From Desulfurispora thermophila DSM 16022 (GTDB lineage: Bacteria > Bacillota > Desulfotomaculia > Desulfotomaculales > Desulfurisporaceae), in the NCBI RefSeq assembly GCF_000376385.1, contig NZ_AQWN01000010.1:62231-126230 (forward strand): DNA of 64,000 bases. Reading direction: 5' to 3'. The translations under genes and the position numbers were made by a program. Below the pieces are notes generated by a model that was not told the DNA's origin, made no database searches, and saw nothing but the letters and a program-made list of their open reading frames with translations. Positions 37,363 through 41,960 of this stretch are shown one piece after another (the first letter of the stretch is position 1; every line of letters starts with the position of its first letter).

Positions 37363-38643
37363 TTACAGGTAGAACATCAGCAGATAAATCATACAAATTA
37401 CAATGGACATAAGCATCATAGGAAAAGCAACTTTGGTGAAATTAATAAATGTAATCAATATCCCTCGCTTTTCCGCCATCCCGGCCACCACCACGTTAGC
37501 AGAGGCGCCAATCAGTGTACCGTTACCACCCAAGCAGGCCCCCAGGGAAAGCGACCACCAAAGGGGGTTTAAGTCATGGATACCACCCAATCGACCCATA
37601 TCCTGGATCAACGGGATCATAGTGGCTACAAAGGGAATGTTATCCACGAAGGCAGAAGCAATTGCAGACAGCCACAAAATGAGCAAACCTGTGGATCGCA
37701 GTGCTCCACCGGTCAGTTCCAGTGATTTTTTGGCCACCATTTCAATGATACCCACATGCTCCAGTGCCCCGACTATCACAAACAGGCCGGCAAAGAAAAA
37801 GATCACCGGCCACTCCACAGCATGAAAAGCATGTTCCGGCTCATCCCGGGTCAGTAAGAGCAACAATGTTGCCCCCGCCAGGGCCACAGTTGCCGATTCC
37901 AGGTGCAAAAACTGGTGCAGTACAAAGCCTATGATGGTCAGGGCAATTACCACCAGGCATTTCTTTAAGAGTACCGGATCTTTTATCTCATTTTTTTCAT
38001 CCATCAACATGACATTTTGTCGCAATTCCGGTGTGGTTACCAACTGCTTTTTATATAAAATACGTAGCCAGATCATGGTGGCAATATGGATAACAATAAT
38101 TACGGGTGTCAAATTGATCACAAAATCCATGAAACCCAACCCTGTAGCACTGCCAATCATAATATTAGGCGGATCGCCAATCAAAGTGGCCGTACCGCCA
38201 ATATTGGAGGCCACCACTTCGGCAATCAGCAAGGGTATTACATTTACTCTGAGCTGCTGGGCAATGGCAAATGTCACCGGCACAACCAACAACACTGTGG
38301 TAACATTGTCCAGGAAAGCACTGCACACCGCTGTAATCGTAGCTAAAGAGATCATAATTTTCACCGGCTCACCCTTGGCCTTCTTGGCGGCCACAATAGC
38401 CATATATTCAAATACCCCGGTATGACGGGTTATGCCAACAATGATCATCATCCCAATCAGCAAACCAATAGTGTTAAAATCAATAGACTCAAAAGCCATC
38501 TCTTGCGTAACAATTCCGGCCAGAATGACCAGTACCGCTCCGGTCAGAGCCACAATTGTGCGGTGAATTTTCTCCAGCATAATCATGGCATAGGTGAGCA
38601 AAAACAGGCCTCCCGAGAAATAAACTTGGGCCTGAGCCGACAT
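37363..38643 (-). CDS. ArsB/NhaD family ion transporter
   Basis: A 426-residue membrane protein with about eleven to twelve helices. Signature regions are LGDPPNIMIGSATGLGFMDF (after VVASNIGGTATLIG) and, in the second repeat, GGNGTLIGASANVVVAGMAE. These are the two re-entrant loop motifs of the ion-transporter superfamily (ArsB, NhaD, P protein). It may exchange Na+/H+ or extrude arsenite; there is no arsR or arsC nearby, so a Na+/H+ or anion role is likelier (inference). SD GAGGAG before the ATG. It is read in the same direction as the DASS gene 200 bases upstream. Confidence 0.9.
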   Translation of the reverse strand: MSAQAQVYFSGGLFLLTYAMIMLEKIHRTIVALTGAVLVILAGIVTQEMAFESIDFNTIGLLIGMMIIVGITRHTGVFEYMAIVAAKKAKGEPVKIMISLATITAVCSAFLDNVTTVLLVVPVTFAIAQQLRVNVIPLLIAEVVASNIGGTATLIGDPPNIMIGSATGLGFMDFVINLTPVIIVIHIATMIWLRILYKKQLVTTPELRQNVMLMDEKNEIKDPVLLKKCLVVIALTIIGFVLHQFLHLESATVALAGATLLLLLTRDEPEHAFHAVEWPVIFFFAGLFVIVGALEHVGIIEMVAKKSLELTGGALRSTGLLILWLSAIASAFVDNIPFVATMIPLIQDMGRLGGIHDLNPLWWSLSLGACLGGNGTLIGASANVVVAGMAEKRGILITFINFTKVAFPMMLMSIVICMIYLLMFYL

Positions 38644-38844: not shown

Positions 38845-40299
38845 TTATTTCAGCAAAGCCGTTAAACCGACCAGTGGCCAATAAGTGAACATTATCAATA
38901 CCAGTGAAAGCAGTACCAAAATTGATCCTGGTATGCCAGCCACAAAAAACTCACCGGTTGTGAACTGTTTGGATTCATAGGCCATAGCATTGGGAGCGGC
39001 GCCTATCAGCAACAGCATGGGCAGACCTGCGGCAGTCACCGAAGCATACAAAATAAGCTCGGGGTTGACACCAAGATATTTTGCAATGACCAATGCCACC
39101 GGCAAAACAATGGCTATAGCCGCAACGTTCATTATAAAGTTGGTCATGATCAAGACCAGCAAAGCCACACCCAGCACAAACACCAGCCAGGGTGCGCCCT
39201 GCAGCAGGGAAAGCCATTTGACAGCCATCCACTGGGCAGCACCGGTTTTCCAGAGAGCAAAACCGATACTCATGGCGCCGCTAAACAACAGCACAATGTT
39301 CCAAGGCACCTTTTTCTCCAAATCTTGCACATCAAGTATACCGGTGGCAAAGAACAACAAGCCAGCCAGCAATAGGGGTATGGAACGGTCCAGCGTTTTT
39401 AAAGAAGGAACAGCCGCTTGCATAATCAGCAAGGCCAGAGCCAGCACCACTACCACGCAGACAAATTTCTCCTCCCTGCTCATCGGGCCCAGTTCCTGGT
39501 ACAACTTCTGGGCCTTGACCCGTAAGCCCGGTATAACTTTCTTTTCAGGTTTGTACATTACCATCATTAACAGCCAAACCAGGAATACTATTATCCAGCC
39601 CAGAGGCAGCATGTGTAAAGAAAAATCCATAAAAGAAATATCCTTGCCGGTAAACTCCTTGAAGAAACCAACTGCTGCCGGGTTGCGGGCACCCCCCAGC
39701 AACGTACAGATACTGCCAGCACCGGCTGTATAAGCCATACCGATAAACAACGCTTTGCCAAACCTTGTCGGTTTTCCACTGGTGTCACCCTCGTTATAAA
39801 GAGCCAGAATAGTCATTAATATCGGGATAACAGTGGCTGCCACAGCAGTGTGAGCCATAATATGAGTCAGCAAAGCCGTTAGAACAAAACTGCCCAACAA
39901 TATCTTACTCGTGTCCTCTCCCACCACTACCAGCATGCGGTAAGCCAGGCGTTTGGTCAGGCCCACTTTGGAGAAGGTCAACCCCACCAACAACGACCCC
40001 AGAATAAACATGACCGTGGGGTCCATAAAATCTTTCATGGCCTCTTTGGCCGGACGGATAGCAAAGAGTGGTTGCAAAATACCAATGGCAATTGCCGTTA
40101 CCCCAATGGGTATCACTTCAAATACCCACCAGATACCAGCTAACAAGAATAAACCCAAAGCAGCCTGGCCGGCCCGGGACAGCTCAAATTGCTTTCCGGA
40201 CGGGTCTACAGCCGGAGAAAACTGGGGAGCCAGGTAAAACAAGAGCAACAGGGCAAAACCCAAAACCAGGAAGAACCAGCGCCGCTTGTTAAAATCCAT
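38845..40299 (-). CDS. DASS (SLC13) family anion transporter
   Basis: A 484-residue membrane protein of the divalent anion:Na+ symporter family (CitT/YbhI-like), carrying dicarboxylates, citrate, sulfate or similar. Family regions include TALLTHIMAHTAVAATVIPIL, GSICTLLGGARNPAAVGFF (first SNT-like site) and TNFIMNVAAIAIVLPVAL with LIGAAPNAMAYESKQF (second site). Helix count is about 12-14. SD GAGGAGGGGG before the ATG. The substrate cannot be fixed from sequence: the second site has GAAPNAM, which tends to occur in dicarboxylate carriers. Confidence 0.9.
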   Translation of the reverse strand: MDFNKRRWFFLVLGFALLLLFYLAPQFSPAVDPSGKQFELSRAGQAALGLFLLAGIWWVFEVIPIGVTAIAIGILQPLFAIRPAKEAMKDFMDPTVMFILGSLLVGLTFSKVGLTKRLAYRMLVVVGEDTSKILLGSFVLTALLTHIMAHTAVAATVIPILMTILALYNEGDTSGKPTRFGKALFIGMAYTAGAGSICTLLGGARNPAAVGFFKEFTGKDISFMDFSLHMLPLGWIIVFLVWLLMMVMYKPEKKVIPGLRVKAQKLYQELGPMSREEKFVCVVVVLALALLIMQAAVPSLKTLDRSIPLLLAGLLFFATGILDVQDLEKKVPWNIVLLFSGAMSIGFALWKTGAAQWMAVKWLSLLQGAPWLVFVLGVALLVLIMTNFIMNVAAIAIVLPVALVIAKYLGVNPELILYASVTAAGLPMLLLIGAAPNAMAYESKQFTTGEFFVAGIPGSILVLLSLVLIMFTYWPLVGLTALLK

Positions 40300-40352: not shown

Positions 40353-41312
40353 TCATTTTTGCACCAACAGAGACAAATCCACATTTTGCTGCAGGCACTG
40401 TTTGAAGAAATATGAAGTTATATAGATGTCCATCATGTCGCTCAAACCATCTCCGCCACTATCACCCGATGCGGGAAGGCTGGCTAAAAGCGTATCCTGG
40501 AAATTAAGATAGTCCACCACAATACTTACTGCCTCATCTGCCGGTGCAGACAGGCCACCACTCATATCCAGGTAGTACAACCTGCTGGACTGTCCCACCA
40601 ATCTGCCCTGCCAGTTAACCGACTGACGGTGTAGTAATATTTCCTGTCCGCCCTTTTCTGAATCATGCTGGCATGCTGGGAGGACATAGTTATTGTATAC
40701 TCTTTCACTTGATACAATAACCTTATTGGCATTGGAAAAACGTTCGTCAATATGTGAAATAAAGTTCTTCAATTGATAGATATATCCCTCTGCCATTTTA
40801 TAGTCCAAGGGGTATCCCTGACTATTGAACGCTATGTCCAGCAAAAGGTTTTTCCCGGCTACCAGCGCTGCCGGCAGATGACAGGTAAAGATAATAACCT
40901 TGTTTTCGCTTACAAAATGCGGCAGGTGCTCAACCAGAAAGGACCAAAAGCTGGTTGCTTGTTGCCGAAAATACATGCGCTTAACTTTTTCTGTGTTCAA
41001 ACTTCTTTTAAACAACTGCAGATCTATGTTTTTGGGTCCGGGGTCGAGGCAATACTCCAGCGCCACCAAAAAAGATGTGCGCGGGAATTTTCCCCATGAC
41101 AGTTCATAACCGGTCAGGTGGTCAACCAGGTACAACACCTTTTCCAGATCATGCACCAGGTTAGTCAGTTGTTCATCACTCAAATGACTGACATTACCCA
41201 GATTGTAGACCTGGCGTTGCATTACCCGCCGCCCCTGACGAACACTTTCCAATAATTTTAAATACTTGTATTGCTTATCTTTATACTTGGTTCTAACCAC
41301 CCGAAAGAACAC
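40353..41312 (-). CDS. Transposase-derived protein (IS1634-like), catalytic acids lost
   Basis: A 319-residue open frame, GTG start at 41312. Residues 1-58 (FFRVVRTKYKDKQYKYLKLL, then a basic turn and VYNLGNVSHL) follow the N-terminus of IS1634/IS4-type transposases. Later blocks align by eye with the DDE core: residues 139-146 (VIIFTCHL) where transposases have a D in YDLTST; 155-176 (NLLLDIAFNSQGYPLDYKMAEG) for the loop normally reading GLLVDREGLPL; and 197-205 (KVIVSSERV) for the second-D motif VVVADRGM. Both acids are replaced. Intact elements are about 500-560 residues; the C-terminal 110 residues here are unlike them. No inverted repeats or duplicated flanks were seen. Either a domesticated protein or a decaying remnant; the unbroken frame favours the former. 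Confidence 0.6.
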   Translation of the reverse strand: MFFRVVRTKYKDKQYKYLKLLESVRQGRRVMQRQVYNLGNVSHLSDEQLTNLVHDLEKVLYLVDHLTGYELSWGKFPRTSFLVALEYCLDPGPKNIDLQLFKRSLNTEKVKRMYFRQQATSFWSFLVEHLPHFVSENKVIIFTCHLPAALVAGKNLLLDIAFNSQGYPLDYKMAEGYIYQLKNFISHIDERFSNANKVIVSSERVYNNYVLPACQHDSEKGGQEILLHRQSVNWQGRLVGQSSRLYYLDMSGGLSAPADEAVSIVVDYLNFQDTLLASLPASGDSGGDGLSDMMDIYITSYFFKQCLQQNVDLSLLVQK

Positions 41313-41570
41313 TTATCCCACCCCGGCTTTTCTTGTCACCACCTTTCGAAAAGCATATCGGGTGACGCTTAAAGATAATCTGGTTAAATGTGAATATTAC
41401 TACTTTCTCTATGTACACCACCTTTTGTCACTCATCTTGTGATATATTATACAAATACCATTGCAAATAAGCAATACCTTTTTCACTACAATTTCATAAG
41501 ATTTTCTTCTAATACAAACTTTTTTATGCTTTCCAGCACCAGCACAGGCCAATAGTAGGTGACGGCTTGC

Positions 41571-41960
41571 CTACATAAACTTCAGTGTCAGATCTGGCAG
41601 ATACTTCCGTATAGCGCTCATTGGATTCGATATGATATTCTCCTCCTCCTTCAGCATTCTCTCCAAAGCACTTCGCTCGATAATAACGTAAGGCCTTATT
41701 ATTATACCAAACGGGTGGTGCAACTCTGAAGACAAGACTCCGCTCTCTACTTCGGTGATATCAGTGCCTTCCATGTGGATAGTGTATTCGCCGACCATTT
41801 TCCCGTTTTCGGTCACCCGAATGCCCACCCTGTTCTTCTGGCCGCCCAGAAGTTTTTTCAGTACTGCCATGATGTGCGGATGTTGCTGGGCGAAAGACTC
41901 AGCGGCACGCTTCTTGAAAGGTACGAACCCTTCTTTAATCAGCCTGTCTACATCATTCAT
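41571..41960 (-). CDS. Unknown small protein upstream of the tRNA array end
   Basis: Not recognised. 129 residues without membrane helices. It starts at an ATG behind AAGGAGGG, so it is well translated. A predicted beta-sheet core (RVGIRVTENGKMVGEYTIHMEG...FGIIIRPYVIIERSALERML) somewhat recalls SCP2-like sterol-carrier folds, but that is only an impression. It lies past the tandem terminators of the tRNA cluster, so it has its own promoter in 41961-42080. Confidence 0.65.
   Translation of the reverse strand: MNDVDRLIKEGFVPFKKRAAESFAQQHPHIMAVLKKLLGGQKNRVGIRVTENGKMVGEYTIHMEGTDITEVESGVLSSELHHPFGIIIRPYVIIERSALERMLKEEENIISNPMSAIRKYLPDLTLKFM

Follow-up and report, generated by a model that had tools for sequence, protein, structure and literature searches.

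An exapted IS1634-type transposase gene at the head of an anion-transport operon in Desulfurispora thermophila, and its catalytically dead relatives across Desulfotomaculales

The stretch of DNA analysed here (the window) comprises 64,000 nucleotides of the Desulfurispora thermophila DSM 16022 genome (contig NZ_AQWN01000010.1, positions 62,231 to 126,230), and all coordinates below are positions in it unless a locus is named. A gene laid out like a transposase, with other residues where the catalytic aspartates are expected, stands at the head of an anion-transport operon (Table 1), which raises the question of why it has been kept and what its product does there. The frame opens with GTG and runs through 319 codons on the minus strand with neither stop nor shift, as the first-pass annotation had read it. 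The gene is a single copy in a genome of 2.82 Mb, its position is conserved among relatives, and a search for inverted repeats flanking it returned none, in agreement with that annotation.

Table 1 Features of the anion-transport operon and of its dead transposase gene in the window
Feature	Position	Strand	Basis
CitMHS/ArsB-like anion transporter, second transporter of the operon	37363..38643	-	Neighbour annotation and synteny
SLC13/DASS anion symporter (Na_sulph_symp), 53 nt downstream of the window gene	38845..40299	-	Neighbour annotation and synteny
Catalytically dead IS1634-derived protein, short form, 319 aa, first gene of the operon	40353..41312	-	Sequence and family alignment
Catalytic D2 position, reads KVIVSSERV, residues 196-204	40701..40727	-	Alignment with long family and active IS1634
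Catalytic D1 position, reads VIIFTCHLP, residues 138-146	40875..40901	-	Alignment with long family and active IS1634
N-terminal beta-beta-beta-alpha domain, residues 1-60, common to the long family	41133..41312	-	Profile match, AlphaFold pLDDT 72-91, conservation
Third box GTGGTGACAA, ~20 nt before the start codon	41333..41342	-	Motif search
Second box GTGACAAAA, just downstream of the promoter	41423..41431	-	Read from sequence
Conserved promoter: box GTAGTGAAAAA, TTG at -35, N20, TATAAT; ~30 invariant columns	41446..41489	-	Seven short-gene promoters compared

No family was recognised directly when the window protein was searched against Pfam and NCBIfam, and PADLOC and solved-structure searches with it gave nothing useful. 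Residues 51-114 (40971-41162) match phrog_4500, of unknown function, weakly (E 2e-5).

A search of 100 related genomes returned two kinds of relative, short and long. Apart from the window genome, the short kind (~300-340 aa) was found in a single GTDB family (f5); the short-form alignment has ten rows, including the window gene and one row cut by a contig end, and further short copies in G030 and G074 bear a stop or are fragmentary. The long sister family (~455-560 aa), usually one copy and sometimes tandem, is present in most of the 53 positive genomes, out of 113 in the order. A class-level search returned the same 113 genomes, and a sample of the phylum added only three weaker matches outside the order, one of which (G470) is a five-copy element with an intact triad. 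Loci with genus names belong to Desulfofundulus, Desulfovirgula, Desulfoscipio, Desulfotruncus, Desulfallas, Sporotomaculum and Desulfocucumis, and all named members are Desulfotomaculales. The window gene thus has orthologues, for which the first-pass annotation had proposed a check, and is no lone remnant. In several short genes CTG occupies the start-codon position (L063:10342, L112:5778, L113:8001, L114:1070, L115:8001), in L063 with an in-frame TAA two codons upstream.

The long forms supply the connection to IS1634. All seven that were scanned match the IS1634 profile NF033559 with 45-270 bits, four of them above the 100-bit cut-off, and active IS1634 copies reach ~440 bits; standard annotation would therefore label long forms 'IS1634 family transposase' and leave them unnoticed. 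Profile comparison (hhalign) aligns short with long forms at 98.8% probability over residues 1-64 only, and the link of the window protein to IS1634 runs through these residues; homology past residue 64 was not significant by this comparison. Of the IS1634/IS4-type layout first proposed, the N-terminal match to the long family therefore stands, and a direct Pfam or NCBIfam match of the window protein does not. The claim that unrelated sequence had replaced the C-terminal part was not borne out; MAFFT and AlphaFold suggest that what follows residue 64 is a shortened core with a short C-terminal helix. The first-pass annotation had also placed VIIFTCHL (138-145) and KVIVSSERV (196-204) at the aspartate sites, and alignment with the long family does put both in its D1 and D2 segments, the placement running from the window protein through these segments to the DDE positions of active IS1634. 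With IFTCHL at D1 and VSSERV at D2 there is no intact DDE triad, and by profile cut-off, terminal inverted repeats and mobility or copy number, too, the window protein falls outside IS1634.

In a joint alignment, D, D and E are retained in 29/29 active IS1634 transposases, whereas the long dead family keeps D1 in 0/55, D2 in 25/55 and E in 2/55, and the complete triad in none of the 55. One branch of the tree (SH-aLRT 99) splits active from dead sequences; given the long branches, this favours a single origin of the dead family without proving it. In the N-terminal tree the nesting of the short form inside the long form was not settled, and a joint clade was not rejected. Columns conserved at 95% or more number 23/60 in the N-terminal part of the dead family and 0/425 elsewhere, against 2/56 and 27/452 in active elements. 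These column counts show that constraint has left the core for the N-terminal ~60 residues, and it is only there that the window gene can be aligned securely.

Structure models agree with this ancestry to different degrees. The long-form model (pLDDT 84) finds Tn5 transposase as its best match (Foldseek E 8e-7; VIA Z 13.6, 5.2 A over 314 residues). The window model, whose input alignment included long-family rows, is weak as a whole (pLDDT 58). Its N-terminal beta-beta-beta-alpha domain is confident, and it has a half core of beta-beta-beta-alpha-beta (pLDDT 63-79), the best matches of which are PIWI and integrases with Z up to 8.5, a value that this common arrangement can give. The long family is thus modelled with a Tn5-like fold and the window protein, at modest confidence, with half of an RNase H fold; the structural comparison suggested at first pass did return RNase H-like folds for the core, at that confidence only.

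Short genes stand directly before an SLC13 gene, usually with CitMHS next and with TrmK and Nif3 recurring nearby, and the synteny table lists ten short loci besides that of the window, each with the SLC13 neighbour, even the stop-bearing G030 copy. Long loci adjoin SLC13, TauE/SafE, CBS or CitMHS genes or a partner gene encoding 238 aa; in some genomes they also lie by Hdr/Qmo/Apr sulfate-reduction genes. An anion-transporter or partner gene lies within 5 kb at 52/64 family loci versus 0/28 active IS1634 copies of the same order, an SLC13 of the operon's type is encoded in 38/53 family genomes versus 5/60 others, and full-length aprA in 45/53 versus 25/60, all counts including related genomes treated as if independent. 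The long loci of one genus (G026, G080, G093 and G101) are without transporter neighbours, in genomes without aprA and with higher dN/dS (0.25-0.30).

Several further arrangements were observed. The window genome also carries a long dead form (C4:263850-265518; L074:9352-11019), which sits just after the aprA-qmo-hdr sulfate-reduction genes and is convergent with them. In GTDB family f11 a cassette of long form, TauE and the 238-aa gene is tandemly repeated (L081, L154, L155, L156, L157); the 238-aa protein has no Pfam match. A 129-aa gene (41571-41960) lies upstream of the operon on the same strand, and its product has no Pfam or NCBIfam match above chance.

The operon promoter is another conserved element. 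Seven short-gene promoters, that of the window included, share ~30 invariant columns (GTAGTG-AAAAA, TTG, then GTATAATAT-TC-CAA) and are far better conserved than the protein, for which the family alignment gives relatives only ~17-23% identical to the window protein. Related boxes precede long genes in several families, and GTRRTGAMAA boxes on the coding strand lie upstream of 36/65 family genes versus 32/278 controls. The strict box-promoter pattern was found at 22 places in 20 genomes (18/53 family genomes, 2/60 others), mostly before SLC13 genes or short-SLC13 operons; in some genomes the SLC13 gene follows it without the short gene. Many unlinked SLC13 genes in family genomes have no box. 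In several lineages the box forms half of a dyad, TGRCAA-N5..7-TTGYCA, over the -35 site. The promoter box also precedes SLC13 in G018 and G038, genomes without the family, and hence some other protein can read it. The promoter thus marks a common control over anion transport; it does not follow that its reader is the dead transposase.

A genome-wide scan of the window genome with the loose box gave 50 sites versus 52 for the reversed pattern, i.e., no enrichment, and no clear regulon emerged among the loose-box sites inspected there. A resemblance of the box to IS1634 ends was examined and set aside: the 9/12 match to the nearest element gave a shuffle p of 0.013 for a comparison chosen post hoc, but over six elements the result (295/3000) was not significant. 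The upstream regions of family genes are also enriched in a second motif, TTGCACAA (28/65 versus 12/278 controls), with examples before long genes L082, L162 and L164 and before SLC13 in L311-L314, and TGCACAA recurs near unlinked SLC13 promoters. At L066, L068, L249 and L250 a similar -10 element or promoter precedes genes of ~210-223 aa that by eye resemble gamma-class carbonic anhydrases.

Among the explanations for this locus, a recent remnant under decay would account for the broken or fragmentary extra short copies in G030 and G074, but the results largely refute it where the family is concerned. Pairs of long genes have Nei-Gojobori dN/dS values of 0.06-0.30 and pairs of short genes values of 0.19-0.27, and intact orthologues persist in conserved synteny at saturated synonymous distance. 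Synonymous sites are saturated between the window gene and its nearest relatives as well, and a 319-codon frame that is still open at such a distance argues for constraint on it. The domestication first proposed gains support from orthologues at a conserved operon position without element ends, from purifying selection in family pairs and from the order-wide sister family without an intact triad; on these comparisons, the window gene is a well supported case of an exapted transposase. One conceivable use of such a protein is dominant-negative inhibition of active IS1634 elements in the manner of the Tn5 inhibitor, which, like Tn5 transposase, is one of the structures that the long form matches best. 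We consider this very improbable: the window genome has no active IS1634, its long dead gene being the only match to NF033559, genomes with many active copies (e.g., G051) also keep the dead gene, and the linkage to transporters would be left unexplained.

The reading that we favour, at a probability of roughly 0.55, is that the window protein regulates the adjacent anion-transport operon as a DNA-binding protein without catalytic activity, a role to which ancestry, operon position and the conserved N-terminal domain point. Its main rival accepts the exaptation and places the role after translation, with the protein acting on the transporters or with the CBS-domain protein, e.g., as an assembly or gating partner. 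It would explain why the genes linked to the family are those of the transporters and CBS proteins themselves, and it is in keeping with a promoter box that occurs without the family and with a Pfam search in which no helix-turn-helix or other named DNA-binding domain was found in the window protein. The same search, however, matched no membrane or nucleotide-binding family, the ancestor was a DNA-binding enzyme and the N-terminal domain is the most conserved part, and we regard a partner-protein role as unlikely, if still a serious contender. It is less probable again that an ordinary transcription factor reads the promoter and that the role of the dead transposase in the operon is unrelated to transport. 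The dyad over the -35 site, of which the box is part, and the box in G018 and G038 would suit such a factor, but an unrelated role does not explain why long and short forms both adjoin anion transporters in unlike gene orders.

In our best explanation, the catalytic triad of an IS1634-type DDE transposase was lost in the ancestry of these sulfate reducers. The dead gene was then kept vertically beside anion-transport genes, the window gene being a further reduced form that now heads the SLC13-CitMHS operon. Under the regulatory reading, the N-terminal domain, which in the ancestral transposase probably helps to bind DNA ends, would now bind DNA at or near the operon promoter, and this binding may tune transcription of the anion transporters and of the dead-transposase gene itself. 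A wider proposal, which we put forward tentatively and do not hold to be the likelier case, is that the whole dead DDE lineage is dedicated to regulating the import of sulfate-type anions across Desulfotomaculales; its proteins would work through the N-terminal domain at the conserved promoter, and the long form would have been reduced to the short one.

Exapted transposases are well known in eukaryotes, and few have been described in bacteria. With IS1634 transposases (NF033559, DDE enzymes of Tn5 fold) the family has in common the N-terminal domain, the long-form layout and the Tn5-like fold; it differs in the missing triad and flanking repeats, in its few copies at conserved positions, in the shift of conservation to the N-terminus and, for the window form, in the reduction to 319 aa. 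The Tn5 inhibitor is likewise a shortened transposase of the same fold, but it is encoded within an active element, and the window genome has no active partner element. RAYT proteins are catalytically active Y1/HUH enzymes. They resemble the family in being prokaryotic transposases retained as host genes without their element, whereas here a dead DDE protein sits in a transport operon, and Pfam finds no Y1/HUH transposase domain in the window protein. TnpA-REP/RAYT proteins have been described as domesticated transposases (PMC8266576), and TldR are nuclease-dead TnpB proteins that act as RNA-guided transcription factors (PMC13418256). The latter share with our family the retention of a catalytically dead transposon protein for a host-side role; they are derived from TnpB and use a guide RNA, whereas the family here is DDE-derived. 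Pfam finds no TnpB-derived domain in the window protein, and the long form combines NF033559 with the Tn5 fold.

Exapted mobile elements have been reviewed for other cases than IS1634 (PMC8987985), and among open papers we found no report of a domesticated IS1634-type family or of a dead DDE family that a whole bacterial order has retained. A comparative study of sulfate transporters in sulfate reducers discusses their genomic context and does not mention a transposase (PMC5840216). If the family does regulate anion uptake, it would offer a route to study how the first step of sulfate reduction is controlled in Gram-positive sulfate reducers.
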